A stretch of 64,000 nucleotides of DNA, from NCBI RefSeq assembly GCF_019443325.1, contig NZ_CP080383.1, forward strand, positions 3,100,001 to 3,164,000, in the 5' to 3' direction. Numbering within the stretch: position 1 is the first letter of the stretch; the number at the start of each line of letters is the position of its first letter. Below are positions 4,180 to 34,132 of the stretch, piece by piece. The translations under genes and the position numbers were made by a program. The DNA is from Cryobacterium sp. PAMC25264 (lineage in GTDB: Bacteria; Actinomycetota; Actinomycetes; Actinomycetales; Microbacteriaceae). The notes below the pieces were generated by a model. That model was given only the letters and a program-made list of their open reading frames with translations, was not told where the DNA came from and made no database searches.

Positions 4180-5679
4180 TCAGGTGTTCTGCGGGAAGCC
4201 CAGGTTGATGCCGCCGTGGCTGGGGTCCAGCCAGCGGGCGGTCACGGCCTTCTCCCGAGTGTAGAAGCTGATGCCGGCGGGGCCGTAGGCCTTGGCGTCA
4301 CCGAAGAGGGAGTCCTTCCAGCCGCCGAACGAGTGGTATGCCACCGGCACCGGGATCGGCACGTTGATGCCGACCATGCCCACCTGCACCTCGTGCTGGA
4401 ACCTGCGGGCGGCCCCGCCGTCGTTGGTGAAGATCGCGGTGCCGTTGCCATACTTGCTGGCGTTGATGATCGCCACACCGTCGGTGTAGCTGGCCACCCG
4501 GAGCACACTCAGCACCGGGCCGAAAATCTCGTCCTGATAGACGGCCGAGTCCACGCTCACTTTGTCGAACAGGGTGGGCCCCAGCCAGAATCCGGATGCG
4601 TCGCCGTCCACCTCGATACCGCGGCCGTCGATCACGACCTCCGCGCCATCCGCGTGGGCGATGTCGATGTAGCCGGCCACCTTGTCGCGGTGTGCCTCGG
4701 TGATCAGCGGGCCCATGTCGCAGCCGCGCATGCCGTCGCCGACCGTGAGGCCCTTCACGCGCTCGGCGATCTTGGCGATGAGATCGTCGGCGACGGGTTC
4801 CACAGCCACGATCACACTGATGGCCATACAGCGCTCCCCCGCCGAACCGAAGCCGGCGTTGACCGCGGCATCGGCGGCCAGGTCGAGGTCGGCATCCGGC
4901 AGCACCAGCATGTGGTTCTTGGCACCGCCGAGGGCTTGCACCCGCTTGCCGTGGTGCGCGGCGGTCTCGTAGATGTACTTGGCGATGGGCGTGGAGCCGA
5001 CGAAGGAGATCGCCTGCACGTCGGGGTTGACCAGCAGCGCGTCCACGGCTTCCTTGTCGCCGTGCACGACGTTGAAGACGCCGTCGGGCAGGCCGGCCTC
5101 GGTGAGCAGCGCGGCGAGCCAGTTAGCGGCGGACGGGTCCTTCTCGCTGGGCTTGAGCACAACCGTGTTGCCGGCGGCGATGGCGATGGGGAAGAACCAG
5201 AGCGGCACCATGGCGGGAAAGTTGAACGGGCTGATGATGCCGACCACGCCGAGCGGCTGCCGCAGCGTGTAGACGTCGACGCCGGTGGAGACGTTCTCGG
5301 AGAAGTCGCCCTTGACCAGGTGTGGCAGGCCGAGCGCGAACTCGACGACCTCGAGGCCGCGGGCGATCTCGCCGAGGGCGTCGGAGGTGACCTTGCCGTG
5401 TTCGTTGGTGAGGATGTCGGCGAGCTCGCCCTTGCGGGCGTTGAGCAGCTCGCGGAAGGTGAACATGACGCCCTGACGTTTGGCGATCGAGGCGTCCCGC
5501 CAGGCGGGGTAGGCGGCCTGGGCCGAGGCGACAACGGTGTCGACGTCGGCGGCGGAGGCCAGGGATACGAGGCGCTGCACTCTGCCGGTGGCCGGGTTGT
5601 AGACGGGGGCGGTGCGGGTGGATGCTCCGGTGCCTGGAGCGCCGTCGATCCAGTGGGTGAGGACGGGAAGGTCGTTCAT
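4180..5679 (-). CDS. mmsA: Methylmalonate-semialdehyde dehydrogenase (CoA-acylating)
   Basis: A 499-residue aldehyde dehydrogenase. Catalytic Cys284 lies in AGERCMAI. LGGAKNH around residue 250 replaces the ELGGK general-base motif of ordinary aldehyde dehydrogenases, the hallmark of the CoA-acylating methylmalonate-semialdehyde subfamily. SPFNFPAMVPLW near residue 150 also fits. Expected reaction: malonate or methylmalonate semialdehyde + CoA + NAD+ to acetyl- or propionyl-CoA + CO2 + NADH. In this operon it would finish breakdown of beta-alanine (uracil branch) or 3-aminoisobutyrate (thymine branch). Start: ATG at 5679, followed by MNDLPVLTHWIDG at the usual family position. It is the last gene of the nine-gene operon, 29 bp after the aminotransferase. 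Confidence 0.93.
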   Translation of the reverse strand: MNDLPVLTHWIDGAPGTGASTRTAPVYNPATGRVQRLVSLASAADVDTVVASAQAAYPAWRDASIAKRQGVMFTFRELLNARKGELADILTNEHGKVTSDALGEIARGLEVVEFALGLPHLVKGDFSENVSTGVDVYTLRQPLGVVGIISPFNFPAMVPLWFFPIAIAAGNTVVLKPSEKDPSAANWLAALLTEAGLPDGVFNVVHGDKEAVDALLVNPDVQAISFVGSTPIAKYIYETAAHHGKRVQALGGAKNHMLVLPDADLDLAADAAVNAGFGSAGERCMAISVIVAVEPVADDLIAKIAERVKGLTVGDGMRGCDMGPLITEAHRDKVAGYIDIAHADGAEVVIDGRGIEVDGDASGFWLGPTLFDKVSVDSAVYQDEIFGPVLSVLRVASYTDGVAIINASKYGNGTAIFTNDGGAARRFQHEVQVGMVGINVPIPVPVAYHSFGGWKDSLFGDAKAYGPAGISFYTREKAVTARWLDPSHGGINLGFPQNT

Positions 5680-5708
5680 GTCATCCGATTCTGTTGAGGT
5701 GGACGGGG

Positions 5709-7058
5709 TCAGAGGAGGTCGAGGGAGAGCACCTCGTCGTAGATGGCGAGTGCCTCGGCGACCTCGTCGTCGGTGACGACACAGGGCGGCACCACGTGGA
5801 TACGGTTGTCCTGCACGAAGGGCAGCAGGTTGCGGGCCAGCAGCTCGGTCTTGATGCGGGCCATCACGGCCGGCGCCACGGGCGCCCGGGTCTCCCGGTC
5901 GGACACGAGCTCGATCGCCCAGAAGACGCCCTCGCCGCGCACCTCCCCGATGATCGGGTGTTTCTCCGCCAACGCCGTGAGGCCGGGGCCGAGCACGTCG
6001 GCGCCGATCCGGGCGGCGTTCTCCACGATGCCCTCGTCCGCCATGGCATCCAGCGCCGCCACGATCGAGGCCATCGCCAGCGGATGCCCGCTGTAGGTGA
6101 GTCCGCCGGGGAACACCGTCGTGTCGAAGTCGGCGGCGATGGCATCCGAGATGATCACGCCGCCCACCGGCACGTAGCCGGAGTTGACACCCTTGGCGAA
6201 GGTGATCAGGTCGGGCACCACGCCGGAGCCCTCGAATGCGAACCAGCGTCCGGTGCGGCCGAAGCCGACCATGACCTCGTCGAGGATCAGCAGGATGCCG
6301 TATTTGTCGCACAGCGCCCGCACACCGGCCAGGTAGCCGGGCGGCGGCATCAGTACCCCGGCGGTGCCGGGGATCGACTCGAGCAGTACGGCCGCGATCG
6401 ACGTGGCGCCCTCGCTCTGGATGACCCGTTCGAGGTGCTGCAGTGCCCGCTCGCACTCGCGCTCGGGGGTGCGCGCCCAGAACTCGCTGCGGTAGAGATA
6501 GGGGCCGAAGAAGTGCACGTGACCCCGGGCGAACTCGTTGGGGATGCGCCGCCAGTCACCGGTGGCGACGATGGCCGCGCCGGTGTTGCCGTGGTACGAG
6601 CGGTAGGTGGAGAGAACGGTGTCGCGGCCGGTGTGCAGGCGGGCCATCCGGATGGCGTTCTCGTTGGCATCCGCACCGCCATTGGTGAAGAAGACCTTGT
6701 TGAAGCCGTCGGGTGCGCGGTCGACGATGCGTTTGGCGGCCTCGCCACGGGCCAGGTTAGCCGTGGACGGGGCGATGGTGGTGAGCAGTTGCGCTTGCGC
6801 GATGATGCCCTTGATCACGGCCGGATGCTGGTGGCCGATGTTGACGTTGACCAGCTGACTGGAGAAGTCGAGGTAGGTGCGACCCTCGTGGTCCCAGACC
6901 CGGCAGCCGAGACCGCCGGCGATCACGAGGGGCTTCAGCGCCCCCTGAGCCGACCAGGAGTGGAAGACGTGGGCCTTGTCGAGCTGAGTGGTGAGGTCGT
7001 TGAGTCCGAGCTCGGTGTCGGTGGATGTGCCGGTGTCGGTGGTGCTGTCGATGTCGGT
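5709..7058 (-). CDS. Class III omega-aminotransferase (beta-alanine/3-aminoisobutyrate:pyruvate type)
   Basis: A 449-residue PLP enzyme of the class III family. The PLP site DEVMVGFGRTG and the Schiff-base lysine in ITFAKGVNSGYVPVGG are intact, as is TNGGADANENAIRMAR for cofactor-phosphate contact. Between the amidohydrolase/dihydropyrimidinase genes and mmsA, its most likely job is moving the amino group from beta-alanine or 3-aminoisobutyrate to pyruvate or 2-oxoglutarate, yielding the semialdehyde used by MmsA. Start: a GTG at 7058, chosen because GAAGGAA lies just upstream. Taurine, GABA and other omega-amino substrates cannot be excluded from sequence. Confidence 0.85.
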   Translation of the reverse strand, partial: TDIDSTTDTGTSTDTELGLNDLTTQLDKAHVFHSWSAQGALKPLVIAGGLGCRVWDHEGRTYLDFSSQLVNVNIGHQHPAVIKGIIAQAQLLTTIAPSTANLARGEAAKRIVDRAPDGFNKVFFTNGGADANENAIRMARLHTGRDTVLSTYRSYHGNTGAAIVATGDWRRIPNEFARGHVHFFGPYLYRSEFWARTPERECERALQHLERVIQSEGATSIAAVLLESIPGTAGVLMPPPGYLAGVRALCDKYGILLILDEVMVGFGRTGRWFAFEGSGVVPDLITFAKGVNSGYVPVGGVIISDAIAADFDTTVFPGGLTYSGHPLAMASIVAALDAMADEGIVENAARIGADVLGPGLTALAEKHPIIGEVRGEGVFWAIELVSDRETRAPVAPAVMARIKTELLARNLLPFVQDNRIHVVPPCVVTDDEVAEALAIYDEVLSLDLL

Positions 7059-7146
7059 CACGATGCTTGTTCCTTCGCTTCTGCCCCGCACAGGCGGGGC
7101 GGTGGTGACCGGGCGGCGGGTGTGCCGCCGCCCGGTCGGGGTTGTT

Positions 7147-8298
7147 CTACTCGCCGCCCTCCTTCAGGGTGACGTCGGTCGGAGTCCAGTCGGCGCCCAT
7201 GACGTCGACCCCGTCCGCGGTGAGTTCATCCAGGGCCTTTTGCACGTACTCGTTGGAGTATGCGCTTTCGGGCGGGTCTGTGGTGATGATGGTGGCACCG
7301 GTTTCGTTCTTCGTGTTCATGGCGATGTCGACCGTGTTGGCCCAGGCGGCCTCGTCGATCAGGCCGACGCCGTTGGTGGACGGGAAGATCAGCTTGCTGA
7401 CCTCGTTGGTCATCCAGAGCTGGTGTCCGGCGGGCAGAGCAGAACCGGCGTCGGCCACGATGGTCGCGGCATCCTCCGGGTTCTGGGCGGCGTAGATCCA
7501 GCCCTTGATGGAGGCCTTGATGAACTTCACCGTCTGGTCGGCGTAGGCCTCGTCGTCGGCGAGCTTGTCGGTGTTGGCCCAGATCGCGTCCTGGAGCATC
7601 GCGGTGCCTTCTTTGTTCCAGTCGATGACGTTGAGGTCCTCGGGCTGGTAAAGCTCGCCGGTGTCGGGGTTGATGGTCTCGAGCACCTGCGCGTATTCGT
7701 TGTAGGTCATGGCCTGGGCCGCGTCGATGTCGCCGGCCAGGAACGCGTTCATGTCGAAGGCCTGCTGCACGAGGCTGATGTCGCCCACCTCGACGCCGTC
7801 CTTCTGCATGCCGGCGAAGAGCTCCCACTCGTTGCCGTAGCCCCAGCTGCCGACGTTCTTGCCCGTGAGGTCGGCCGGGCTGGTGATGTTCTTGTCCTTG
7901 AACGAGATCTGGGTGGTGGCGCTGCGCTCGAAGATCTGCGCGACGTCGGTGATGTTGGCGCCCTGCTCGATCGAGCCGAGCACCTTGGGTACCCAGGAGA
8001 TGGCGTAGTCCACGTCGCCGGAGGCGAGGACGTCCTGCGGCACGATATCGGCGCCGCCCTCCTCGATGGTGACGTCGAGACCTTCGTCTTCGTAGTAGCC
8101 CTGGTCGACGGCGGCGTAATAGCCGGCGAACTGGGCCTGGGCTACCCACTGCAACTGCAGGGTGACGGGGGTCAGCTCGCCGCCTGTGGAGTCGTCGGGC
8201 GAGGCGGTGTCGTTGGAGGCGCTGCATCCGGTGAGGACGAGTGCGCTGGCCGCGGCGACGGCGCCGGCCGTCGTAAGCCATCGAGTGCTGTGTTTCAT
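7147..8298 (-). CDS. ABC transporter substrate-binding lipoprotein, NMT1/THI5-like
   Basis: A 383-residue lipoprotein. The signal peptide has lipobox LTGC (cysteine near residue 25), followed by a Ser/Thr/Asp-rich linker and an NMT1/THI5-type binding fold (VTLQLQWVAQAQFAGYYAAVDQGYY). This subfamily binds pyrimidine, thiamin-precursor or riboflavin-like compounds. With two permeases and an ATPase upstream and pyrimidine catabolic enzymes on both sides, import of a pyrimidine, dihydropyrimidine or hydantoin is the natural inference. It should be tethered to the outer face of the membrane. The ligand is not determined by sequence. Confidence 0.88.
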   Translation of the reverse strand: MKHSTRWLTTAGAVAAASALVLTGCSASNDTASPDDSTGGELTPVTLQLQWVAQAQFAGYYAAVDQGYYEDEGLDVTIEEGGADIVPQDVLASGDVDYAISWVPKVLGSIEQGANITDVAQIFERSATTQISFKDKNITSPADLTGKNVGSWGYGNEWELFAGMQKDGVEVGDISLVQQAFDMNAFLAGDIDAAQAMTYNEYAQVLETINPDTGELYQPEDLNVIDWNKEGTAMLQDAIWANTDKLADDEAYADQTVKFIKASIKGWIYAAQNPEDAATIVADAGSALPAGHQLWMTNEVSKLIFPSTNGVGLIDEAAWANTVDIAMNTKNETGATIITTDPPESAYSNEYVQKALDELTADGVDVMGADWTPTDVTLKEGGE

Positions 8299-8485
8299 GG
8301 GTTCCTCCTGAGTAGTACTGCTGCGGGGTGCTGCTGCGGGGGGTCATGCTGCAAGGCGGGTAACGGATGGTGCGGGTGCTGCCGGTTCTGCTGTGTGGGT
8401 ACTGCGGGTTAGGTGCTGCGGTGGGTGTTGCGGGGTGACCGACCTGGTGCGTCGGACGAGTGGGGGGGGCCTGGGCGGGTGGGGC
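8299..8485. other. Intercistronic spacer of TGCTGCGG-like low-complexity sequence
   Basis: A 187-bp gap inside the operon. It is filled with degenerate repeats of TGCTGCGGG/GTGCTGCGG and ends in a run of eight G next to the permease gene. No coding frame is convincing. The substrate-binding gene has its own ribosome site (AGGAGGAACCC) just upstream of its start. Such a spacer may allow a separate mRNA or higher expression of the binding protein; that is inference. Confidence 0.5.
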
Positions 8486-9316
8486 TCAGGCGGTGGGGGC
8501 GCGGCGGCTGACCAGTTTCTCCAGGCCGAGCGCCGCGCAGTAGAAGAGGAGGCCGAGGATGATGGAGCCGAGAACGTACGCCCAGGCCAGCCCGTAATTG
8601 GAGCTGGAGGCGGCCGAGGTGATCGACTTGCCCAAGCCCCCGACGGGTCCGCCGAAGTACTCGGCGATCAGCGCCGAGATCACGGCGAGCGATGACGCTA
8701 TGCGCAGGCCCGTGAACACGAACGGCACGGCCGTGGGCAGGGTCACCGTCTTGGTGGCCTGCCAGCTCGACGCGGCGTAGGAGCGCATCAGGTCCCGGTG
8801 CACCGGACGCACCATGCGCAGGCCCTTGAGGGTGTTGAAGTACACCGGCACGAACACGGCCAGGGCGGCCACGAGCTGCCGGGCGGTCTCGGCGTTGGCG
8901 CCGAACATCGTGTAGAGCACGGGCGCCAGCGCCACGATGGGCACCACCGCGAAGGCCGCCACGACGGGCGCGGCCATCTCGTCAAACAGCCGCACGAGGG
9001 CCGAGAGGATGGCCAGCAGCACGCCGACGATCGCGCCGAGCACCAGGCCGATCAGGGCGTTGCGGCCCGTGACGACCATGCCATTCAGCACGTTCTGCAG
9101 GTTGGCGCTGAACTGCTCGCCGATCGCGAACGGACCCGGCAGGATGAACGGCTTGATCGCCAGAACGGTGACGGCGCCCTGCCAGAACAGGATCGCGACG
9201 AGGCCGAGGAGAACCGGCGGCAGCACCGTGCGGGACAGGCCGGAACGCGCCGCACCCGACCGGGCCGGCTCGGCCGACACCGGTGCCGCCGGGCGCACGC
9301 CCGCCGGGGCGCTCAT
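8486..9316 (-). CDS. ABC transporter permease (SsuC/TauC/ThiX type)
   Basis: A 276-residue inner-membrane permease with about six helices and the cytoplasmic EAA-like loop (YAASSWQATKTVTLPTAVPFVFTGLR) that contacts the ATPase. The N-terminal 30 residues are Ala/Pro/Arg-rich and cytoplasmic. The start ATG at 9316 overlaps the stop of the ATPase gene (ATGA), showing translational coupling. It is the second permease of the operon's importer and probably pairs with the permease at 10137-11081 as a heterodimer. Confidence 0.88.
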   Translation of the reverse strand: MSAPAGVRPAAPVSAEPARSGAARSGLSRTVLPPVLLGLVAILFWQGAVTVLAIKPFILPGPFAIGEQFSANLQNVLNGMVVTGRNALIGLVLGAIVGVLLAILSALVRLFDEMAAPVVAAFAVVPIVALAPVLYTMFGANAETARQLVAALAVFVPVYFNTLKGLRMVRPVHRDLMRSYAASSWQATKTVTLPTAVPFVFTGLRIASSLAVISALIAEYFGGPVGGLGKSITSAASSSNYGLAWAYVLGSIILGLLFYCAALGLEKLVSRRAPTA

Positions 9317-10140
9317 CGGGTCTCGACCCCGCGCGCCCCGGTGGGGGTGGCGCCGTGCAGGAGCTCCCGCACCTGGCTGACCGAGTGGAAGAAGTCCTCG
9401 TCTTCCCGCAGGTTCTCGCCGCGGTCGCTCATGCGGCCGAGGTTGACGCTGAGCACGTCGCGGATGCGGCCGGGCCTCGGCGACATCACCACCACCCGGT
9501 TGGAGAGGAACACCGCCTCGGGGATGGAGTGGGTGACGAAGACCACGGCGGCGCTGGTCTCGGCGCAGATGCGCACGAGCTCGTTCTGCATGCGCTCCCG
9601 GGTCATCTCGTCGAGGGCGCCGAACGGTTCGTCCATCAGCAGCAGGCTCGGGCTCTCGGCCAGCGACCGGGCGATCGCCACCCGCTGCTGCATGCCGCCG
9701 GAGAGCTGGTCGGGGTAGTGCCCGGCGAAGTCACTCAGGCCCACGAGCTCGATCAGCTCGGCGGCGCGGTCGCGGCGTGCGGCCTTGCCGGTGCCGTGCA
9801 GTTCGAGGGGCAGTTCGATGTTGCCGGTCACCGTGCGCCAGGGCAAGAGGCCGGCCTGCTGGAACGCGATGCCGTAGTCCTGGTCGATGCGGGCCTGCCT
9901 GGCGCTCTTGCCGAACACCTCGATCGACCCTGTCGTGGGAGTGTCGAGGTCGGCGATCAGCCGCAGCAGGGTGCTTTTGCCGCAGCCGGACGGGCCGATC
10001 AGCGACACGAATTCGCCGGGAGCGACAGAAAGGCTCACCGCATCCAGGGCCGTGACGGATGCGCCCTTGCGGCCGGCGAAGACGCGACTGACCCCCTTCA
10101 CCTCGACGGCATGCTGTACCGGTAGTGCTGCCGTGGTCAT
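9313..10140 (-). CDS. ABC transporter ATP-binding protein (SsuB/ThiZ type)
   Basis: A 275-residue ATPase. It has Walker A GPSGCGKST (about residue 49), Q-loop FQQAGLLPWRTV, signature LSGGMQQR, Walker B LLLMDEPFGALD and switch histidine VTHSIPEA. The sequence type matches nitrate/sulfonate/pyrimidine-precursor importers and it is flanked by the two permease genes. ATGA overlaps join it to both neighbours. It would power uptake of the operon's substrate from the cytoplasmic side of the membrane. Confidence 0.9.
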   Translation of the reverse strand: MTTAALPVQHAVEVKGVSRVFAGRKGASVTALDAVSLSVAPGEFVSLIGPSGCGKSTLLRLIADLDTPTTGSIEVFGKSARQARIDQDYGIAFQQAGLLPWRTVTGNIELPLELHGTGKAARRDRAAELIELVGLSDFAGHYPDQLSGGMQQRVAIARSLAESPSLLLMDEPFGALDEMTRERMQNELVRICAETSAAVVFVTHSIPEAVFLSNRVVVMSPRPGRIRDVLSVNLGRMSDRGENLREDEDFFHSVSQVRELLHGATPTGARGVETR

Positions 10141-11081
10141 GCGGCCACCTCTCCCCTGCGGAATCGACGTAGGAACAGTGAGATCAGGCCGACGAAGCCG
10201 GCGGCCACGAGACCCACCAGCACCGACCCGAAGATGGGGGCCCAGGGCTTGCCCGGGTCGCTGCCGGCGGCGCCGGCGTATTCGACGATGAGCCGGCCGA
10301 TGCCGCCGCGGAGACCTATGGACACCTCGGCGACGACGCTGCCGATCACGGCGCTGGCCGCCGCGAGGCGGAGGGCGGGCAGCAGGTAGCCCACGCTCGC
10401 CGGCAACCGCAGCCGCCAGAGCGTCTTCCACCAGCCCACCGCGTAGCAGTGCATGAGGTCCACGTGGTTGGCGTCGGGTGAGCCGAGGCCCTTGAGCGCG
10501 CCGATCGAGACGGGGAAGAAGGCGAGGTAGGAGGCGATCAGCGCCACCGACATCCAGTTCTCCCAGCTGAACGAGCCGAATTCGATCTGCGCGCCCCAGC
10601 GCCGCACGAGCGGTGCAAGGGCAATCAGCGGCACCGTCTGGCTGAGGATGATCCAGGGCAGGATGGCCGATTCGGCCAGTCTGAAGCGCTGCATGAGCAG
10701 CGCGAGCGCGAGGCCCACCGTGACGCCGACGAGCCAGCCGACCGCGGCGATGCCGAGCGTGAACAGGGCGGCTTCGAGCACGGCCTGCCACATCGGCACC
10801 GCGCTGGACGAGCCGGTGACGGGCTCGAGGATGCGTTCGAGCATCACCCAGAGGTGCGGCATGGCCATTTCGCTGGCCCGCGGCAGCACGGTGAGACCGC
10901 CGACGATCACGCCGTCGGCGGGGGCGAGAAAGACGTACAGTTCCCAGAGCAGCGCGAGGGCGAGCACACCGAGCGCGCCCACCAGGATGCGCCGCGGCAT
11001 CCCCTGGCCTAACCAGGACCGGCCGCGCGCCGCAGTGGACGCCCTCGCCGGGGCGGTGCTGACGGTGCCGGCCTGGGTCAT
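10137..11081 (-). CDS. ABC transporter permease (second subunit of the pyrimidine-operon importer)
   Basis: A 314-residue membrane protein with about six to seven helices and the ATPase-contact loop (HCYAVGWWKTLWRLRLPASVGYLLPALR). It is longer than its partner because of a periplasmic insertion between the first two helices (about residues 55-95). The start ATG at 11081 overlaps the stop of the LLM oxidoreductase gene by an ATGA; an apparently longer frame runs antisense-like through that gene and is not real. It contributes the transmembrane pore with the 8486-9316 permease. Confidence 0.86.
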   Translation of the reverse strand: MTQAGTVSTAPARASTAARGRSWLGQGMPRRILVGALGVLALALLWELYVFLAPADGVIVGGLTVLPRASEMAMPHLWVMLERILEPVTGSSSAVPMWQAVLEAALFTLGIAAVGWLVGVTVGLALALLMQRFRLAESAILPWIILSQTVPLIALAPLVRRWGAQIEFGSFSWENWMSVALIASYLAFFPVSIGALKGLGSPDANHVDLMHCYAVGWWKTLWRLRLPASVGYLLPALRLAAASAVIGSVVAEVSIGLRGGIGRLIVEYAGAAGSDPGKPWAPIFGSVLVGLVAAGFVGLISLFLRRFRRGEVAA

Positions 11082-12094
11082 GCCTTGGCCGTGATGTGGT
11101 CGGCGAGGGCGGGGATCACGGTCTCGCCGTAGACCCGCAGGGTCTCCTCTTTGTTGTCGTGCTGCAGGTAGCCGGCGAACTGGTCGACGCCGAGTTCCTT
11201 GAGCGCCGTGAGCTTGGCGATATGGGCCTCGGCGGGGCCGAGCAAGCAGAACCTGTCGACGATCTCGTCGGGCACGAAGTCGGTGTGGGTGTTGCCGGCC
11301 CGGCCGTGCTCGTTGTAGTCGTAGCCCTCGCGGCCCTTGATGTAGTCGGTGAGGGCCTTGGGCACGGCACTGTCGGAGCCGTATTTGGCGACGATGTCGG
11401 CGACGTGGTTGCCCACCATGCCGCCGAACCAGCGGTTCTGGTCGCGCATGTGCTGCCAGTCGTCGCCCATGTGCATGGGCGCCGCGACGCAGAACTTGAT
11501 CGCCTCGGGGTCGCGGCCCGCGTTGGCGGCGGCGGTGCGCACGGTCTTGATCATCCACTCGGCCACGTCGAGGTCGGCCATCTGCAGGATGAAGCCGTCA
11601 CCGACCTCGCCGGTGAGCTTGAGCGCGAGCGGGCCGTAGGCGGCCACCCAGACGTCGAGAGTGGAGCCCTGGCTCCAGGGGAACTGCAGGGTGGCACCGT
11701 TGTACTCGACCGCTCTGGAGTTGGCGAGTTCGCGGATGACGTGGATCGATTCCCGCAGGGTCTTCAGCGTGCTGGGCCGACCGTTGGTGACCCGCACCGC
11801 GGAGTCGCCGCGGCCGATACCGCAGATGGTGCGGTTGCCGTACATCTCGTTGAGGGTGGCGTAGGTGGAGGCCGTGACCGTCCAGTCCCTGGTGGCCGGG
11901 TTGGTGACCATCGGACCCACGATCACCTTGCGGGTCTCGGCAAGGATCTTGCTGTAGATCACATAGGGTTCCTGCCAGAGCAGGTGCGAGTCGAAGGTCC
12001 ACACGTGGCTGAAGCCGTGGTTCTCGGCCAACACGGCCAGCTGCACGGTGCGCGCCGAGGGCGGGTTGGTCTGGAGTACTGCGCCGAAGTCCAT
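11078..12094 (-). CDS. LLM-class flavin/F420-dependent oxidoreductase (TIGR03842-like)
   Basis: A 338-residue single-domain TIM barrel of the luciferase-like monooxygenase superfamily. The N-terminus MDFGAVLQTNPPSART, TICGIGRGDSAVR near residue 90 and the VGPMVTNPATR strand fit the family. It resembles the group annotated as 'TIGR03842 family LLM class F420-dependent oxidoreductase', which I recall occurring beside hydantoinase/dihydropyrimidinase genes. Cofactor (F420 or FMN) and substrate are not proven. In this operon it is the only redox enzyme besides MmsA. It is therefore a candidate for the missing uracil/thymine reduction step, or for an oxidative side step. It lies 8 bp after dihydropyrimidinase and overlaps the following permease gene. 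Confidence 0.8.
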   Translation of the reverse strand: MDFGAVLQTNPPSARTVQLAVLAENHGFSHVWTFDSHLLWQEPYVIYSKILAETRKVIVGPMVTNPATRDWTVTASTYATLNEMYGNRTICGIGRGDSAVRVTNGRPSTLKTLRESIHVIRELANSRAVEYNGATLQFPWSQGSTLDVWVAAYGPLALKLTGEVGDGFILQMADLDVAEWMIKTVRTAAANAGRDPEAIKFCVAAPMHMGDDWQHMRDQNRWFGGMVGNHVADIVAKYGSDSAVPKALTDYIKGREGYDYNEHGRAGNTHTDFVPDEIVDRFCLLGPAEAHIAKLTALKELGVDQFAGYLQHDNKEETLRVYGETVIPALADHITAKA

Positions 12095-12102
12095 GGTGTT
12101 CC

Positions 12103-13536
12103 CTAGATCAGGTACTGGCTGAGACCGCGTTTGATGTACTTGCCATCACCCTTGGCGCCGAGGTACTGGTTGTTGTCGATGACGACCTTGCCGCGGGAGA
12201 GGACGGTGTCGACGTGGCCGTCGATCTCGTAGCCCTCCCAGGCGGAGTAATCCATGTTCATGTGATGGGTCTTGCCCACTCCTATCGAGGTGTGCCCGTT
12301 CGGGTCGTAGATCACCACGTCGCCGTCGGCTCCGGGCTGGATGACGCCCTTCTGGCCGTACATGCCGAACATGCGTGCGGGAGTGGTGGAGGTGACCTCC
12401 ACCCAGCGTTCGAGGGAGATCTGCTTGTCGACCACGCCCTGGTACAGGAGATCCATGCGATGTTCGACCGAGCCGATGCCGTTGGGAATCTTGGAGAAGT
12501 CCGTCAGCCCCATGTCTTTCTGCCCCTTCATGCAGAACGGGCAGTGATCGGTGGAGACCATCTGGATGTCGTTGGTGCGCAGGCTCTGCCACATGTGGTG
12601 CTGGTGGCCCTCGGCCTTGGACCGGAGCGGCGTGCTGCACACCCACTTCGCCCCCTCGAAGGTGCCCCACTCGTCGCTTTCGGCACCGAGCTGGTCTTCG
12701 AGCGAGAGGTAGAGGTACTGCGGGCAGGTCTCGCCGAACACGTTCTGGCCGCGGTCGCGGGCGATGGCGATCTGCTCCACTGCTTGTTTGGCTGACACGT
12801 GCACCACGTAGAGCGGCGCCCCGGTGAGGTTGGCGAGCATGATGGCCCGGTGGGTGGCCTCTTCCTCGGCCTGCCACGGCCGGGTCAGGCCGTGAAAGTA
12901 GGGCGTGGTGTTGCCGGCCGCGACGGCCTGCTGCACGAGCAGATCGATGACGCTGCCGTTCTCGGCGTGCATCATGATCATGCTGCCGTTGCTGGATGCC
13001 TTCTGCATGGCCTTGACGATCTGGCCGTCGTCGGAGAGGAACACACCCTTGTAGGCCATGAAGAGCTTGAAGCTGGAGACACCCTCGTTGACGAGCTCGT
13101 CCATGGCCACGAGGGAGGAGTCCTGCACGTCGGAGAGGATCTGATGGAAGCCGTAGTCGATGGCGCACTCGCCGCGGGCCTTCTCCTGCCAGAGATGGTA
13201 CTGGTCGAGCACGTTCTCACCGGCGTACTGCACCACGAAGTCGACGATGCTCGTGGTTCCACCCCACGCGGCGGCCCGGGTGCCGGTCTCGAAGGTGTCG
13301 CTGGCCTCGGTGCCACCGAACGGCATCTGCATGTGGGTGTGCGCGTCGATACCGCCGGGGATCACATACTTTCCGCCGGCATCGATCACGGTGTCGACGT
13401 TCCGCTCGATGTCGAAGCCGAGCAGGGTGGAGCCGGGGGCGAGCACCGCGGCGATGGTGTCGCCGTCGATCAGCACATCCGCTCGGGCCGTGCCCGTGGA
13501 ATTGACCACGGTGCCGTTCTTGATCAGGGTCTTCAT
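12103..13536 (-). CDS. hydA: Dihydropyrimidinase / D-hydantoinase
   Basis: A 477-residue cyclic amidohydrolase. All metal ligands of the binuclear zinc site are visible: H66 and H68 (DAHTHM), carboxylatable K157 (SSFKLFMAYKG), H190 (MMHAEN), H246 (VVHVSA) and D330 (STDHCP). The reaction opens dihydrouracil or dihydrothymine to N-carbamoyl-beta-alanine or N-carbamoyl-3-aminoisobutyrate; 5-substituted hydantoins are alternative substrates. The length is standard for the family. The start ATG at 13536 follows an AGGAGAA ribosome site. It acts in the cytoplasm directly before the amidohydrolase encoded by the next gene upstream. Confidence 0.93.
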   Translation of the reverse strand: MKTLIKNGTVVNSTGTARADVLIDGDTIAAVLAPGSTLLGFDIERNVDTVIDAGGKYVIPGGIDAHTHMQMPFGGTEASDTFETGTRAAAWGGTTSIVDFVVQYAGENVLDQYHLWQEKARGECAIDYGFHQILSDVQDSSLVAMDELVNEGVSSFKLFMAYKGVFLSDDGQIVKAMQKASSNGSMIMMHAENGSVIDLLVQQAVAAGNTTPYFHGLTRPWQAEEEATHRAIMLANLTGAPLYVVHVSAKQAVEQIAIARDRGQNVFGETCPQYLYLSLEDQLGAESDEWGTFEGAKWVCSTPLRSKAEGHQHHMWQSLRTNDIQMVSTDHCPFCMKGQKDMGLTDFSKIPNGIGSVEHRMDLLYQGVVDKQISLERWVEVTSTTPARMFGMYGQKGVIQPGADGDVVIYDPNGHTSIGVGKTHHMNMDYSAWEGYEIDGHVDTVLSRGKVVIDNNQYLGAKGDGKYIKRGLSQYLI

Positions 13537-13590
13537 GACGTTCTCCTGTTCGGTATTGCGTCGCTACTTCGTCTGCGGTCGTCACCACGT

Positions 13591-13696
13591 CGCTGGTCGA
13601 GCTTGTCCAGACCTCGTGAGCCGTCTTCGGTACGTAGGCCGGGTCGCGGGGTCTACTTCGACAAGCTCAGTACGACGTCGCCAAGCTCGACCAGCG
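13591..13696. repeat. REP-like inverted repeat (CGCTGGTCGAGCTTG family)
   Basis: CGCTGGTCGAGCTTG at 13591-13605 is the exact inverse of CAAGCTCGACCAGCG at 13682-13696, with a further TTCGACAAGCTCAGTACGA stretch inside. It fills the 182-bp gap between the amidohydrolase and dihydropyrimidinase genes. The same core recurs at 34133-34233. Palindromes of this kind are dispersed in Microbacteriaceae genomes; here one interrupts an operon and could attenuate or stabilise the mRNA. Confidence 0.65.
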
Positions 13697-13718
13697 GGAC
13701 GTGCGTCGCTGAGATTCC

Positions 13719-14596
13719 TTACGGCTTGGGGATCGAGGTGTAGGACTCCGGGCGGCGGTCACGGTAGAACTGCCAGTTGTTGCGCACCTGACGGATCATG
13801 CCGAGGTCGAGGTCGCGGATCACGACCTCCTCGTCGACGCCGCTGCCGAGCTCTCCCACGTAGTTGCCCTGCGGGTCGACGAACTGGCTGGTGCCGTAGA
13901 ACGTCACCGCGTCCTCGCCGTACTCGTTGTCCTCCGGCCCACCCGGTTGGGCGCGGCCACGAAGTAGCCGTTCGCGGCCGCGGCAGCCGGCTGCTCGATC
14001 TCCCAGAGCCGGTTCGACAGGCCCGGCTTGGTGGCGTTGGGGTTGAAGACGATCTGCGCGCCGTTGAGGCCCAGTTCACGCCAGCCCTCTGGAAAGTGCC
14101 GGTCGTAGCAGATGTAGACGCCGATCGGACCGACGGCCGTGTTGAAGACGGGGTAGCCGAGGTTGCCGGGGCGGAAGTAGAACTTCTCCCAGAACTTGTC
14201 GAGGTGGGGGATGTGGTGCTTGCGGTACTTGCCGAGGATGGTGCCATCGGCATCCACCACGACCGCGGTGTTGTAGTACACACCGGGCTGCTCTTCTTCG
14301 TAGATGGGGAGAACCATGACCAGGTTCAGTTCCTTGGCCAGCTTGGCGAAGCGCTGCACGATGGGGCCGTCGGCGGGCTCGGCGTAGTCGTAATACTTGG
14401 CGTCTTCGGTGATACCGAAGTAGGGCCCGTAGAACAGCTCCTGGAAGCAGATGACCTGGGCGCCGTCGGCGGCCGCATCGCGGGCGAACTTCTCGTGCTT
14501 GTCGAGCATCGAGTCGATATCCCCCGTCCACGTGGTCTGGGTGATCGCCGCTCGCACGATGTTGGATGTGCCGAGTCTGGATGGGTCGGTGCTCAT
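13719..14596 (-). CDS. Beta-ureidopropionase-like carbon-nitrogen hydrolase (frameshifted as sequenced)
   Basis: Nitrilase-superfamily amidohydrolase. The catalytic triad is visible: Glu in CFQELFYGPYF, Lys in GKYRKHHIPH and Cys in VYICYDRHFPEG. It should release CO2 and NH3 from N-carbamoyl-beta-alanine (or N-carbamoyl-3-aminoisobutyrate) to give the beta-amino acid. The start is ATG at 14596 behind GGAGG. The frame breaks near 13931-13936, just after AAPNRVG; adding one G/C there joins it to the C-terminal 70 residues (VTFYGTSQFVDPQG to the stop). As corrected it has about 292 residues, normal for the family. The break matches six others in this window and is probably a sequencing error. 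It is the first gene of the operon. Confidence 0.85.
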
Positions 14597-14765
14597 ACTC
14601 TTGCCTCCACTGGGTCTCACACGGTGGGAACCTCGTCAGCAGGAGAGCAAGACATCGCTTTATGGGCGAGCCATACGGGGAAGAGCCTGTCGAGATCGAG
14701 CCACATTACGGTGTCCGGTTTTGTTATTATTCGACGTAAACATTTCTGTTCTGTTTCTTCATATG

Positions 14766-14813
14766 ACGCATGCGTAAATCATCCTGTCGTTCGGGCATGC
14801 TTTTGGCAAGCAT
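14766..14813. promoter_or_regulatory. Palindromes in the AT-rich divergent promoter region of the pyrimidine operon and its MocR regulator
   Basis: The 236-bp gap between the operon start (14596) and the regulator gene (14833) contains an unusually AT-rich stretch (about 14710-14790) for this genome. It carries a perfect 10-bp palindrome ACGCATGCGT at 14766-14775 and ATGCTT-N5-AAGCAT at 14797-14813. Both are reasonable operator candidates for the MocR protein. No -10/-35 pair is assigned with certainty. Confidence 0.4.
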
Positions 14814-14832
14814 TCGGGCTAGGAAGGACACC

Positions 14833-16170
14833 ATGCAGCTCTACCTCGACGAGATCGAACAGGCCACTCCGGCCGGTATCGCCGCCGCGCTGGGCCGCCT
14901 GATCAGTTCCGGCCGGCTCGCCCCCGGTGAGCGCCTGCCCACGGTGCGCGACCTCGCCGGACTCCTGGGCGTGAGCCCGGCCACGGTGAGCCATGCCTGG
15001 CAGGCGCTGTCGTCGGCAGGCCTGATCGTCTCGCGGGGCCGCAGCGGCACGTTCGTGCGGGAGCCGTCCCGGCACTGGCTGCCCGCCCGCACCCAGACGC
15101 TGGCCGGGCACCTGAGCGACGCCCGGATCGACCTCTCGCGGGGCACCCCGGACCCGCTCCTGTTGCCGGCGCTCGGGCCGGCCCTCTCCAGGGTCTCCCA
15201 GCGGGCCATGACCCCCAGCTACCAGGCACTCCCGGTGATTCCCGAGCTGCTCACCGTACTCACGGGCTCGTGGCCCTACCCGGCCGAGGCGATCACGGTG
15301 GTCGACGGTGCACTCGACGCCATCTCCCGCAGCCTCGAGCTGGTCGCCAGATTCGGCGACCGGGTCATCGTCGAGGACCCCGGCTTTCCGCCGTTCTTCG
15401 ACCTGCTCGACCAGATGGGCATCGAGCGGCTGCCCGTGGCCGTGGACGCGGAGGGCATCGTGCCGGACGCCTTCCAGGCAGCGCTCGCGCTGTCGCCGGC
15501 CGCCGTGATCCTGCAGCCCCGGGCGCACAACCCCACCGGCGCCTCGATGTCGGCCGACCGCGCCGCCGAGCTCGCCCGGCTGCTGGGCGCCAGCCCCCGG
15601 GCCGCGCACACGGTGGTGATCGAGGACGACCACTCCGGAGCCATCAGCACCTCCCCGGATGTGTCACTCGGCCGTTGGCTGCCCGAACGGGTGCTGCACG
15701 TGCGCAGCTACTCCAAATCACACGGGCCCGACCTGCGCATCGCCGCCCTCGGCGGACCGGCGGCGCTCGTGGACCGCATCGTGGCCCGGCGCATGCTCGG
15801 ACCCGGCTGGACCAGCCGGATGCTGCAGACCATCCTGCACGAGCTGCTCACCGACGGCGCGAGCATGGCGCAGGTCAACGAGGCCCGGCACGTGTACTTC
15901 GCCCGCCAGAAGGCGCTGGCAGATGCCCTCACCGGGTTCGGCCTGCCCCTGGCCCGCGCCGACGGCATCAACGCGTGGGTGCCAGTGGCCGACGAGCGCG
16001 ACGCCATCGTGCGGTTGGCGGCCTCTGGCATCCGGGTGGCCGGCGGCATCCCATTTCTCGCATCGGAGCGACCGGAGTCGTTCATCCGGGTGACGGCCGG
16101 GGCGCTGCCCGACGACGTGCTGCCGGTGGCCCGGGCGATCGCGGCCGCGGCAGGGGTCCTTGCGCCCTGA
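14833..16170 (+). CDS. MocR/PdxR-type transcriptional regulator (GntR helix-turn-helix + aminotransferase domain)
   Basis: A 445-residue fusion. A winged helix-turn-helix of the GntR type (about residues 10-75: LPTVRDLAGLLGVSPATVSHAWQAL) is followed by a class I aminotransferase-like domain with PLP-lysine motif HVRSYSKSHGPDLR. MocR proteins usually sense PLP or an amino compound and activate a neighbouring operon. Divergence from the pyrimidine/beta-amino-acid operon suggests it senses beta-alanine, aminoisobutyrate or a related amine, which is inference. The start ATG at 14833 follows AGGAAGGA; 21 extra upstream codons are possible but lack a ribosome site. Confidence 0.88.
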   Translation: MQLYLDEIEQATPAGIAAALGRLISSGRLAPGERLPTVRDLAGLLGVSPATVSHAWQALSSAGLIVSRGRSGTFVREPSRHWLPARTQTLAGHLSDARIDLSRGTPDPLLLPALGPALSRVSQRAMTPSYQALPVIPELLTVLTGSWPYPAEAITVVDGALDAISRSLELVARFGDRVIVEDPGFPPFFDLLDQMGIERLPVAVDAEGIVPDAFQAALALSPAAVILQPRAHNPTGASMSADRAAELARLLGASPRAAHTVVIEDDHSGAISTSPDVSLGRWLPERVLHVRSYSKSHGPDLRIAALGGPAALVDRIVARRMLGPGWTSRMLQTILHELLTDGASMAQVNEARHVYFARQKALADALTGFGLPLARADGINAWVPVADERDAIVRLAASGIRVAGGIPFLASERPESFIRVTAGALPDDVLPVARAIAAAAGVLAP

Positions 16171-18579: not shown

Positions 18580-19707
18580 ATGACCGGAACGACGCACCCC
18601 CGCAGCACTCCTCCGTCACTACCCGAGCGTGCCGCACCCCGCGGGAGCCGCGATGCGGCATCCGTCACTGTGCATCGCAGCGGGCCGGGCCGGTACCTGT
18701 TCTGGCTGGTCACGGCGCTGGTGGCCCTGCTTCTCGGCTGCGCCGTTGCCGTGACGATCGGCCCGGCCGACGTGAGCCTGGCGCAGGTTGTGGGCAGCGT
18801 GGGGAGCCACCTCGGCCTGCCCGGACTGGCCGGGGGAACTCCGGTGCCGCCCTTGACCGACGCCATCGTGTGGCAGCTGCGGATGCCGCGCGTGCTCACC
18901 GCCGCCATGGTGGGCGCGGGCCTCGCGCTCAGCGGCGCGGTCATGCAGAGCGTCACCCGCAACCCGCTCGCCGACCCCTACCTGCTCGGCCTGTCCTCCG
19001 GCGCGTCGCTCGGGGCGGTCTGCGTGGTCATCCTCGGCGTGGGCTTCGCGCTGCCGGCTGCGGCTTTCGCCGGGGCCCTGATCGCCCTGTTCGCCACCCT
19101 CAACATCGCCCGCGTCGGCGGCAGCATCACCCCGGGCCGCGCCGTGCTGGCCGGGCTGGCGATCGCCCAGCTGGGCTCGGCGGGCACCTCGTTCATCATC
19201 TTCTGGGCGGCCAAAGGCGACTCCTACCGGGAGATCCTCAACTGGCTGCTCGGCTCCCTGGCCGGCAGTTCCTGGACCAGCGTGCTGATCTCCACAACCG
19301 CGCTCGTCCTCGTGGGCACGGGCATCCTGCTCGCCGCCAGCCGACTGGATGCGTTCACCTTCGGCGACACGAACGCCGCGTCGCTGGGCATCAACGTGAA
19401 CGCCACCCGCTGGGGATTCCTCGTGGCTGTCGCGCTGCTCACTGGCGCGATGGTGGCCGTGAGCGGGGCGATCGGGTTCGTGGGGCTGATCCTGCCGCAC
19501 CTGGTGCGCGGACTCAGCGGTCCGGGGCACCGACGCCTGCTGCCGCTCGTCGCGGTGGTCGGCGCGCTGTTCCTGGTGCTCGCCGATACCCTCGCCCGCA
19601 CGGTGTTCGACCCGCGGGAGCTGCCCGTGGGCATCATCACCGCGTTCATCGGGGTGCCCGTGTTCATCCTGCTGATCACGCGCAAGCGAAGCGCGGCCTG
19701 GGCATGA
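18580..19707 (+). CDS. Putative F420-0 ABC transporter, permease (FecCD family)
   Basis: A 375-residue FecCD/BtuC-family permease with about nine to ten helices. The conserved QLRMPRVLTAAMVGAGLALSG and SVTRNPLADPYLLGLSSGA segments are present, as is the late GLILPHLVR motif. The first 35 residues are a polar cytoplasmic extension. The stop overlaps the start of the ATPase gene (ATGA), so the two are translationally coupled. The substrate assignment rests on cassette context (cofD downstream), not on residues. Confidence 0.82.
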   Translation: MTGTTHPRSTPPSLPERAAPRGSRDAASVTVHRSGPGRYLFWLVTALVALLLGCAVAVTIGPADVSLAQVVGSVGSHLGLPGLAGGTPVPPLTDAIVWQLRMPRVLTAAMVGAGLALSGAVMQSVTRNPLADPYLLGLSSGASLGAVCVVILGVGFALPAAAFAGALIALFATLNIARVGGSITPGRAVLAGLAIAQLGSAGTSFIIFWAAKGDSYREILNWLLGSLAGSSWTSVLISTTALVLVGTGILLAASRLDAFTFGDTNAASLGINVNATRWGFLVAVALLTGAMVAVSGAIGFVGLILPHLVRGLSGPGHRRLLPLVAVVGALFLVLADTLARTVFDPRELPVGIITAFIGVPVFILLITRKRSAAWA

Positions 19708-20627: not shown

Positions 20628-21689
20628 ATGACCCGAGTCACAGTTCTCGCCGGCGGCGTCGGCGGCGCCCGCTTCACTCGCGGGTTGTTGCAGCACCTGG
20701 CGTCCGAGGACGCGCGAGATGCGGCGAATGTCCCCTCTGGCGGCCCGGACGGGGCACCTTCCGGCACCTCGGCGAAGGGGCAGGCCAGCGAGGTCACCGT
20801 GATCGTCAACTCCGGCGACGACATGTGGCTCGACGGGCTGCGCATCTGCCCCGACCTCGACACCGTGATGTACACGCTGGGCGGCGGCATCAGCGAGGAG
20901 CAGGGTTGGGGTCGTGCCGAGGAGTCCCGGCGCACCTCCGCCGAGATCTCCGCGTACGGCCGCGGCTGGTCGTGGTTCACGCTGGGCGACCTCGACCTGG
21001 CCACCCACATCGTGCGCACTGACCTGCTCAAGAACGGCGCCACGCTCAGCGCCGCCACCGAGTTCCTCTGCCGCCGCTGGCAGCCCGGCGCCCGGCTGCT
21101 GCCGATGAGCGACCAGTTCGTGGAGACCCACGTGCGCCTGGCCGAGGACGCCGATGAGCACCGAGTCGGCGACCTCATCCACTTCGAGGAGTGGTGGGTG
21201 CGTTACCGCGCGGGGAAGTCCGTCACCGAGTTCGTGCAGGTGGGTCTGGCCGACGCCGTCGCGGCGCCCGGCGTGCTCGAGGCCATCCGTGACGCCGACG
21301 TGGTGATCCTGCCGCCGTCGAACCCCGTCGTGTCGGTGGGCACCATCCTCGCGATTCCGGGCATCCGGGATGCACTGCGCGCCACCTCGGCCCGCGTGGT
21401 GGGCATCTCGCCCATCATCGCCGGCTCCGCGGTGCGCGGCATGGCCGACGCCTGCCTGAGCACGATCGGCGTGGAGACGTCGGCGCTCGCGGTGGGGCTG
21501 CACTACGGCTCCCGGCAGGGCGACGGGGTGCTCGACGCCTGGCTGGTCGACGAGACGGATGCCGCGGCCGTGCCCGCGCTCGAGGCCGCCGGCATCCGCT
21601 CGGCCGCGGTGCCGCTCTGGATGACGGATGTGGCCGCCACCGCTCAGATCGCGGCCGAGGCCCTGCGCAGCGAAGTGGCGACCCGATGA
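20628..21689 (+). CDS. cofD: 2-phospho-L-lactate / phosphoenolpyruvate transferase (CofD/FbiA)
   Basis: A 353-residue enzyme of F420 biosynthesis. GGVGGARF at residues 9-16 forms the nucleotide-binding start, and NSGDDMWLDGLRICPDLDTV with YTLGG is the family signature. It transfers the phospholactyl or enolpyruvyl-phosphate group from the GDP/GPP carrier made by CofC/FbiD to the deazaflavin Fo, giving (dehydro-)F420-0. A low-conservation Gly/Ser/Ala loop at residues 30-55 interrupts the first beta-strand region; FbiA proteins vary here. A ribosome site AGAAGGA precedes the ATG. It lies 30 bp after the putative F420-0 importer, and its stop overlaps the next start (ATGA). Confidence 0.92.
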   Translation: MTRVTVLAGGVGGARFTRGLLQHLASEDARDAANVPSGGPDGAPSGTSAKGQASEVTVIVNSGDDMWLDGLRICPDLDTVMYTLGGGISEEQGWGRAEESRRTSAEISAYGRGWSWFTLGDLDLATHIVRTDLLKNGATLSAATEFLCRRWQPGARLLPMSDQFVETHVRLAEDADEHRVGDLIHFEEWWVRYRAGKSVTEFVQVGLADAVAAPGVLEAIRDADVVILPPSNPVVSVGTILAIPGIRDALRATSARVVGISPIIAGSAVRGMADACLSTIGVETSALAVGLHYGSRQGDGVLDAWLVDETDAAAVPALEAAGIRSAAVPLWMTDVAATAQIAAEALRSEVATR

Positions 21690-30549: not shown

Positions 30550-31262
30550 CCGGCCGGCCCGGGCCGGTCGGGGGCCTCCGTCGGCATCGGCTGCGACCGG
30601 GCGATCAGGGCGCTGGTGTGCGCTCCGACGCCCCGGCGTAGCACCTCGGCGAGGTTGGCGACGGTGTCGACGTCGCGGCGGATCGACGCCGTAGCGGGCA
30701 GGTCCAGTGGCGCGTGACCGGCCGCCTCGTGCGCTGCGCGGGAGCCCAGACCGAACCTCGGCACCAGCGCGAGACCGGCTCGGGCGAGCAGAGTGGTGGT
30801 GCCGGTGCCCTCTTCGTCGGCGACCATCGCGCGATCGTGGGCGGATGCGGCGGTGAGAGTCATCTCGACATCCGCCATCGTGAGGGCGGGCAGGTCGCCC
30901 GTGAGCACCGCGACGTTGCTCCGGGGATACAGCTCCTGAGCCACCCGCACACCCTCGGCGATGGCGGCGTTGAGCGGGTCGCGAGGAGCCGCGAAGTTCC
31001 CGTTCCCGGCATCCGAGGGGGATGTTTGCGGCGGCTCGGGCACGATCTGAACGCCCAGGGCGGCCAACGGCCCGGCGGCAGCGGGGTCGGCCGTCACCAC
31101 GATGACCCGCTGCACCATCTCGGCCGCGAGCAGCGCCGTTACGGTGTCGAGCGCGAAGGCCTCGGCGAGCGCACCGCGCGCCGGGAAGGGCTCGGGCAGA
31201 TCCCCCAGCCGGCTCTTGGCGCTTGCACTGCCCTTGACGGGCACCACGCACACCCAGCTCAC
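30546..31262 (-). CDS. cofC: 2-phospho-L-lactate / PEP guanylyltransferase (CofC/FbiD)
   Basis: A 238-residue nucleotidyltransferase. [18 protein letters not shown] at the start is the GTP-binding signature, [15 protein letters not shown] carries the metal-binding Asp, and [14 protein letters not shown] lies near the end. It makes the activated intermediate used by CofD (lactyl- or enolpyruvyl-diphospho-guanosine). The start GTG at 31262 overlaps the cofE stop. The order LLM oxidoreductase - cofE - cofC - small membrane protein forms one tight minus-strand operon. Confidence 0.9.
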
Positions 31263-32218: not shown

Positions 32219-32220
32219 CG

Positions 32221-33222
32221 CTACCGGGCGAGCTTCGGCAGCACGTCGCGGCCGAACACGTCGATCCACTGGCGCTGGTTGCGGCCCACGTTGTGCAGGT
32301 AGATCTTGTCGAAGCCGAGGTCGACGAACTTCTGGATGTAGGCGCGGTGCTCGTCGGGGTCGGCGGAGATGATCATGCGGCCCTCGAAGTCCTCGGGGCG
32401 CACCATCTTGGCCATCTGCTCGAACTCGAACGGCGAGCGGATGTCGCCCTTCGGGAACTTCATGCCGCCGTTGGGCCACTCGTGCAGGGCGTTCCGCATG
32501 GCCTCCTCGTCGGTCTCGGCCCAGCTCATATGCAGCTGCAGTACCTTGGGCATCGTCGACGGGTCCTTGCCGGCTTCGCGGGCGCCGTCGTCGAACTTGC
32601 CGAAGAGCATCGAGATCTTCTCGAGCGGGGCGCCGACCGTGATGAGGCCGTCGGCGTGGCGGCCGGCGCGCTTGGCCGTGACCGGGCCGGCGGTGGCAAC
32701 GAGGATCTCGGGAGCGACCTCGGGCATGGTCCACAGGCGAGTGGATTCGAGCTTGTAGAACTGGCCGGAGTGCTTGACGTCCTTGCCGGCGATCGATGCC
32801 GCAAACAGTTTGGAGATGATCTCGATGGCCTCGAACATGCGGTTGATCCGCTCGGGGGCTTCGGGCCAGTAGCCGCCCACGATGTGTTCGTTGAGCGCCT
32901 CACCCGAGCCCAGGCCGAGCCAGTGTCGGCCCGGGTACATCGAGGCGAGCGTGGCGGAGGCCTGCGCGACCATGGCGGGGTGCCAGCGGAACGTGGGCGC
33001 GGTGACGCCGGGGCCCATATCGCCCTTGGTGCGTTCGCCGATCGCGGCGAGCACGCTCCACACGAACGAGGATTCGCCCTGGGCTGGCACCCACGGTTGG
33101 AAGTGGTCGGCCGCCATCACGCCGGAGAACCCGTGTTCCTCCGCGTACGCCGACAGTGCCACCGCCTCGGCGGGGGCGAACTGCTCCAACATGGCCGCGT
33201 AACCGATCTGCAATTCCGACAT
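32221..33222 (-). CDS. F420-dependent LLM oxidoreductase (glucose-6-phosphate-dehydrogenase-like family)
   Basis: A 333-residue LLM-superfamily barrel. [31 protein letters not shown] and [16 protein letters not shown] are typical of the F420-dependent glucose-6-phosphate dehydrogenase-like group. It would use or regenerate F420H2 by hydride transfer. Being first gene of an operon with cofE and cofC strongly supports F420 as cofactor. The sugar-phosphate substrate is only one possibility. Start: ATG at 33222. The divergent neighbour is exonuclease III. Confidence 0.85.
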
Positions 33223-34128: not shown

Positions 34129-34132
34129 CTGC

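Follow-up and report, generated by a model that had tools for sequence, protein, structure and literature searches.

The known first enzymes of the reductive pyrimidine pathway are flavo-iron-sulfur proteins of the DHO_dh type. Variants of one of them, PydA, use NADPH, NADH or ferredoxin, and F420 is absent from the main text describing them, in the part of it available to us (PMC7332683). Searches of the open-licence PubMed Central (PMC) literature turned up no F420-dependent uracil reductase. Here we analyse a 64,000 nucleotide stretch of the genome of Cryobacterium sp. PAMC25264 (contig NZ_CP080383.1, positions 3,100,001 to 3,164,000; hereafter the window, to which coordinates refer unless stated otherwise), in which a pyrimidine-breakdown operon includes a luciferase-like oxidoreductase (LLM) of family TIGR03842 (11078–12094, − strand). 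Gene content, linkage, co-occurrence, the lack of PreA matches and a predicted fold together indicate, with a probability of roughly 0.87, that this LLM is an F420H2-dependent uracil/thymine reductase replacing PreAT/PydA. A hypothesis of this kind, with F420H2 or FMN as the cofactor, had come from an earlier inspection of the letters alone (the sequence-only reading), and it is well supported and likely correct: no PreA was found here, pyrimidine, F420 and RutR genes are linked to the family, and the predicted fold is nearest to those of F420 enzymes.

The LLM and the missing first enzyme

The genome is a single contig of 4.06 Mb, and the operon runs on the − strand from 14,596 to 4,180, in the order beta-ureidopropionase, dihydropyrimidinase, LLM, permease, ATPase, permease, NMT1-type binding protein, class-III aminotransferase and CoA-acylating (methyl)malonate semialdehyde dehydrogenase (MMSDH). 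With dihydropyrimidinase and a (frame-broken) beta-ureidopropionase both present, the operon has the hallmarks of reductive pyrimidine degradation (Pyd). The LLM had been described as lying between dihydropyrimidinase and the importer with overlapping genes. By coordinates, its stop codon does overlap the start of the first permease gene by 4 bp, and on the other side 8 bp separate the end of the dihydropyrimidinase gene from the LLM start.

A profile search of the whole genome gave no match to PreA (NF006183). Nine matches to DHO_dh (PF01180) were found genome-wide at an E value of 1 or better, and only two of these exceed the Pfam cut-off: a class-2 (quinone-type) PyrD, and a PyrD of the dihydroorotate dehydrogenase B (DHODB) type beside a PyrK-like gene. 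The latter pair (12743–15009 of region L030, genome position 750.7–753.0 kb) is next to an LLM and an FMN-reductase-like gene. Neither model revealed a PreA/PreT pair elsewhere in the genome, and this explanation was set aside; the second DHO_dh gene is of DHODB type. The LLM is itself no dihydropyrimidine dehydrogenase by domain content; it has a Bac_luciferase domain only and no DHO_dh (PF01180) domain.

Family and predicted fold of the LLM

The LLM covers profile positions 1–329 of the 329 in TIGR03842 (590 bits, cut-off 295) and also matches Pfam Bac_luciferase. Its nearest named homologues are Cryobacterium proteins with 94–96% identity. It had been called unassigned; it has a place in an NCBI family, and that family carries no assigned reaction. 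In an AlphaFold2 model (pLDDT 85.9) the predicted structure is closest to Mer, Adf and FGD, not to RutA, and the top 15 VIA-align entries are all F420 enzymes. The LLM falls below the cut-offs of the Mer families themselves (NF002619, 129 against 276 bits; TIGR03555, 123 against 349 bits).

The bacterial luciferase Pfam to which the LLM belongs includes FMN enzymes, and one of its relatives, RutA, also uses uracil. An FMN-dependent LLM, either a RutA-like monooxygenase with oxidative ring opening or an FMN-dependent reductase, is for this reason an alternative to consider. RutA-like cleavage was rejected on the grounds of family, fold and downstream enzymes: TIGR03612 (RutA) is not among the 24 families that match the LLM at an E value of 0.001 or better, and E. 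coli RutA gives no match to the window LLM at E 0.001, its best match among the 20 LLM matches of this genome being another LLM with 33% identity. F420 is favoured over FMN because genes for F420 biosynthesis or F420-0 import are linked to the family and the predicted fold most resembles those of F420 enzymes, and FMN dependence in either form appears distinctly improbable.

Gene neighbourhoods of TIGR03842 relatives

At least 588 relatives were confirmed by genome scan, and the best 80 of these were taken as named loci; Leisingera was the first query, so that Proteobacteria are over-represented among them. Loci were annotated by local tblastn, and counts use fixed identity thresholds that we chose. 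The flanks extend at most 10 kb and often stop at contig ends, making absences soft. For Actinomycetota, the analysis covered the neighbourhoods of 20 of 48 carriers in addition to the window. The control consists of 17 regions covering the 19 other LLM matches of this one genome, and one of these regions overlaps the F420 genes of the window.

A dihydropyrimidinase gene was found at 32 of the 80 named loci, a beta-ureidopropionase gene at 40, and either hydrolase at 45. The beta-ureidopropionases at carrier loci are of two unrelated kinds. At least two de novo F420 genes were present at 45 named loci, npdG at 47, homologues of the F420-0 importer at 11 and PntAB at 8, and a pyrimidine or F420 gene of any kind at 74. 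Among the 20 Actinomycetota loci, 16 have dihydropyrimidinase and 17 either hydrolase. None of the control regions contains either hydrolase, and only two contain any pyrimidine or F420 gene. No preA or preT was seen in the flanks of the 80 named or the 20 Actinomycetota loci. Several Chloroflexota loci carry the gene set of the window in rearranged order, and pyrimidine-pathway genes are linked to the LLM in three phyla. A tree (a quick version, with outgroups on long branches) separates Actinomycetota from the other taxa, and pyrimidine neighbours are found in both parts.

The 80 loci give 41 gene-order strings, partly from cut contigs, and the full run cofGHDCE-npdG-LLM occurs in 34. A search of plasmids returned 12 TIGR03842 records, of which three were opened: Paracoccus alcaliphilus, Leisingera caerulea and a Streptomyces record without annotation there. 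In the first two, the LLM directly follows cofG-cofH-cofD-cofC-cofE-npdG, and in L. caerulea this run adjoins hydA, a Zn-hydrolase, an aminotransferase and pntAB. In Paracoccus denitrificans, cofGHDCE-npdG and the LLM are clustered with genes for dihydropyrimidinase, an M20-type hydrolase and a RutR-like regulator. In Devosia crocina, the LLM adjoins a putative F420-0 binding protein and permease (TIGR03868, TIGR03869) and a CofE-like gene; homologues of the importer and the CofE-like gene were found at nine of nine Devosia-type loci (L083–L088, L092, L096, L113), which suggests salvage of F420-0 from other bacteria. Adjoining cof runs thus connect the LLM to F420 synthesis in many Proteobacteria, and an adjoining F420-0 importer and CofE connect it to apparent salvage in the Devosia-type group.

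Seven alphaproteobacterial records with 'AG-' isolate names (L055, L058–L062, L064), presumably marine single cells, show a compact cluster of cofD, cofE, npdG, LLM, hydrolase, dihydropyrimidinase and importer; two of them are labelled as metagenome-assembled genomes. The named-locus counts include L037, a contig labelled Nocardioides marinus with a Leisingera-like cof-LLM cluster (LLM 98% identical), which is probably mislabelled or contaminated.

RutR-type regulators

RutR is a sensor of uracil and thymine. In Leisingera, the LLM is followed by a TetR gene whose product has a RutR-type (YcdC-like) C-terminal domain (PF08362); the sole PDB matches of this protein at 1e-8 are RutR chains. Of the 80 named loci, 32 have a RutR homologue in their flanks, while the 20 Actinomycetota flanks, the 17 control regions and the window have none. 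Residues W77, W167, Q171, Y173 and D175 of E. coli RutR, some of which we take to line its pocket, are invariant across the 32 homologues.

Co-occurrence with PreA, CofD and dihydropyrimidinase

Fifty of the 80 named-locus genomes, chosen to be mostly isolates with larger contigs, were searched for PreA and dihydropyrimidinase. All 50 have a dihydropyrimidinase above cut-off, compared with 2 of 14 control genomes, and 43 have PreA below cut-off. The best PreA-model match is under 70 bits in 38 of them, 141–149 bits in four (read as DHODB-like) and 219 bits (cut-off 335) in one.

These values bear on the DHODB/PyrK-like pair at 750.7 kb, which would tell against our proposal if it were the uracil reductase of this genome, with the LLM as an accessory. 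The pair exists in addition to the class-2 PyrD, and DHODB shares homology with PreA (28% identical across 214 residues). In contrast, no DHODB/PyrK gene lies near the LLM at any of 100 carrier loci, the pair is far from the operon here, and the scores below 70 bits of the 38 carriers are lower than those of the four DHODB-like genomes. Such a pair therefore cannot be the general solution, and even for this genome we regard it as conceivable at most, and extremely improbable.

Two larger groups were surveyed. In the order of Halomonas denitrificans (genome G020; 234 genomes; an order that we take to be Pseudomonadales), TIGR03842 is present in 10 genomes and CofD above cut-off in 69, including all 10 carriers (Fisher p 3e-6); in 8 of the 10, CofD and the LLM share a contig, with the start of CofD 3.1–3.4 kb away. 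PreA is present in 15 of the 234 genomes. None of these is a carrier (0/10 against 15/224 non-carriers, p 1.0), a direction that fits mutual exclusion but carries no statistical weight. PreA and CofD are never found together in this order (0/69 against 15/165, p 0.007).

Among 217 Actinomycetota genomes, TIGR03842 is present in 48, PreA in 2, and both in none. CofD matches at E 1e-30 occur in 124 of the genomes, 45 of them among the 48 carriers (Fisher p 6e-10). By gene content, carriers in the groups surveyed can make or import F420: CofD is present in 10/10 in the Halomonas order and 45/48 in Actinomycetota, the genome of the window has its own CofD and CofE, and importer homologues lie at 11 of the 80 named loci.

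The idea that F420 is confined to genomes with this LLM was rejected, since in the Halomonas order CofD also occurs in 59 of the 224 genomes that are without the LLM. Most of the 69 CofD genomes of that order are without TIGR03842.

Genes of the operon and nearby F420 genes

All the operon genes named by the sequence-only reading are present on the − strand as profile matches, and the functions given here are those predicted from family membership. The dihydropyrimidinase gene (12103–13536; TIGR02033, 543 bits, cut-off 393) precedes the LLM, and the importer genes follow it: permease 1 (10137–11081; Pfam BPD_transp_1), the ATPase (9313–10140; Pfam ABC_tran), permease 2 (8486–9316; Pfam BPD_transp_1) and the NMT1/THI5-like substrate-binding protein (7147–8298; Pfam NMT1, 134 bits). 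At the end of the operon are a class-III omega-aminotransferase, proposed to act on beta-alanine/beta-aminoisobutyrate (5709–7091; Pfam Aminotran_3; NF004718, 750 bits, cut-off 472), and MMSDH (4180–5679; TIGR01722, 684 bits, cut-off 448.5). A GntR/MocR-type regulator with helix-turn-helix and aminotransferase-like domains (14770–16170, + strand; Pfam GntR, Aminotran_1_2) is divergent from the operon.

The decarbamoylation gene, a beta-ureidopropionase of the nitrilase type (13718–14596, − strand; Pfam CN_hydrolase), is present as claimed, but its reading frame is broken near 13,930. The first frame stops at 13904, and the C-terminal part resumes in another frame and extends to 13718. In the other positive genomes of this family, 17 of 17, the match is near full-length and free of stops, and the break may be a sequencing error or recent decay.

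F420 genes had been reported to be close to the operon, and the window indeed holds profile matches to a putative F420-0 ABC transporter permease (18580–19707, + strand; TIGR03869, 464 bits, cut-off 437), CofD/FbiA of F420 biosynthesis (20628–21689, + strand; TIGR01819, 338 bits, cut-off 257) and CofE, the F420-0:glutamate ligase, in the C-terminal half of an open reading frame (31259–32734, − strand; TIGR01916, 232 bits, cut-off 181). A further open reading frame (32221–34320, − strand) has a TIGR03557-family F420-dependent LLM in its C-terminal half (278 bits, cut-off 210), which is possibly a dehydrogenase that reduces F420 and might supply the proposed uracil reductase.

Weighing the proposal

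Several observations weigh against the proposed reductase. PreA is above cut-off alongside the LLM in 7 of the 50 carrier genomes. Two of these, Leisingera (G001) and Limimaricola (G041), each carry a pair of dihydropyrimidinases: PreA has one within 3 kb, and the LLM has the other at a distance of about 9–12 kb (shared contigs were judged from coordinates), so that each reductase seems to have a dihydropyrimidinase of its own; in Leisingera the distance to the LLM is about 11.5 kb, which is outside the flank. Three of the 48 Actinomycetota carriers have no CofD match (completeness 81, 89 and 96%; incomplete or fragmented), and one of the 45 positive ones (G476) has a partial match with a stop. 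F420 genes were found in the flanks of none of the 20 Actinomycetota loci and none of the Chloroflexota loci. Because of its broken beta-ureidopropionase frame, the pathway in this strain may be crippled, or the sequence may be wrong. A putative F420/FMN oxidoreductase is needed for uracil reduction in mureidomycin biosynthesis, and its activity in vitro was not obtained, according to the part of the report available (PMC10714638).

Among the 80 named loci, six have flanks without any pyrimidine or F420 gene, and at the nine of Devosia type F420 genes are present but pyrimidine neighbours are not. Part of TIGR03842 could for this reason do something else, and the LLM of the window might be F420-dependent while acting mainly on another heterocycle (thiamine-pyrimidine, cytosine-derived, hydantoin or purine-derived) rather than on uracil or thymine. 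NMT1/THI5-like binding proteins, such as that of the importer, are associated with uptake of the thiamine pyrimidine, and some family members are without pyrimidine neighbours. A luciferase-family putative F420 'yanthine reductase' in uricolytic clusters of Chloroflexota suggests that enzymes of this class may reduce related rings (PMC12507026, as far as its text was available). On the other hand, beta-ureidopropionase, aminotransferase and MMSDH as a set fit the products of uracil and thymine, RutR-type regulators accompany 32 of the 80 loci, and the enzyme that is mostly missing is PreA, the one for uracil. A different main substrate is accordingly judged very unlikely, and uracil/thymine reduction is the reading followed below.

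Proposed pathway and its significance

From the gene families and their linkage we infer the cofactor, the ring substrate, the hydride chemistry and the cargo of the importer. Pyrimidines would be taken up by the NMT1-type ABC importer. F420 would be reduced by an F420 reductase, in many Proteobacteria NpdG/Fno with NADPH fed by PntAB, and in actinobacteria perhaps by a dehydrogenase of the glucose-6-phosphate type. The LLM would then catalyse hydride transfer from C5 of F420H2 to C6 of the uracil or thymine ring, whose C5 would be protonated by an active-site acid. Dihydropyrimidinase would open the ring, beta-ureidopropionase would remove CO2 and NH3, the aminotransferase would yield (methyl)malonate semialdehyde, and MMSDH would convert this to acetyl- or propionyl-CoA.

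On a wider scale, we think it reasonably probable that F420 in many Proteobacteria is foremost a cofactor of pyrimidine catabolism. The complete cof operon (or the Devosia-type module of F420-0 import and glutamylation) and the uracil reductase would form a horizontally mobile catabolic unit, often with a RutR-type sensor. The same enzyme would be a main entry point for uracil degradation in some Chloroflexota and in Actinomycetota, a phylum nearly devoid of PreA. The proposed reductase also predicts that Devosia salvages F420-0 by import.

If correct, the proposal would place a deazaflavin enzyme with another fold at a textbook step, as a non-orthologous substitute spread across several phyla. 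It would fill a hole in the annotated pathway (PreA in only 2 of 217 Actinomycetota genomes) and give TIGR03842 a reaction. Assignment of the pyrimidine pathway of Mycobacterium smegmatis is incomplete in the account available (PMC4617892). Among the open questions named by a 2021 review is the reason for F420 production in Proteobacteria and Chloroflexi; for Paracoccus denitrificans the review records no more than traces of the cofactor (PMC8498797). The proposed enzyme could explain why some bacteria make F420, and for Proteobacteria this answer is testable.

Comparison with known systems

As the catalyst of a known pathway step, the LLM would represent a new type of enzyme, with members in several phyla. 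It shares its proposed step, uracil to dihydrouracil followed by dihydropyrimidinase, with PreAT/PydA and with the ferredoxin-type PydAc of Clostridium, as these are presented in the part of the source available (PMC7332683). It differs from PreAT/PydA in being without a DHO_dh domain or an iron-sulfur chain linked to NAD(P)H or ferredoxin, and has instead a luciferase-type barrel and a proposed deazaflavin donor. With the pyrimidine monooxygenase RutA (5wan, 6sgg), which has uracil as its substrate, it shares the superfamily. From Mer, the F420-dependent methylenetetrahydromethanopterin reductase (8qq8, 1z69, 1f07), it is set apart by scores below the Mer cut-offs and by a different pathway.

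Two further systems are comparable. The putative F420/FMN oxidoreductases NpsU and SSGG-03002, of napsamycin and mureidomycin, are likened to TIGR03842 by description only; in the text available, SSGG-03002 is genetically required for C5–C6 reduction of the uracil ring, in their case on a substrate of antibiotic biosynthesis (PMC10714638). The Chloroflexota 'yanthine reductase', likewise comparable by description only, is a luciferase-family gene proposed from neighbourhoods, in the sections available, to replace a flavin-type reductase in reductive ring opening (PMC12507026). It differs from the LLM in belonging to a purine (uric acid) pathway linked to SsnA.

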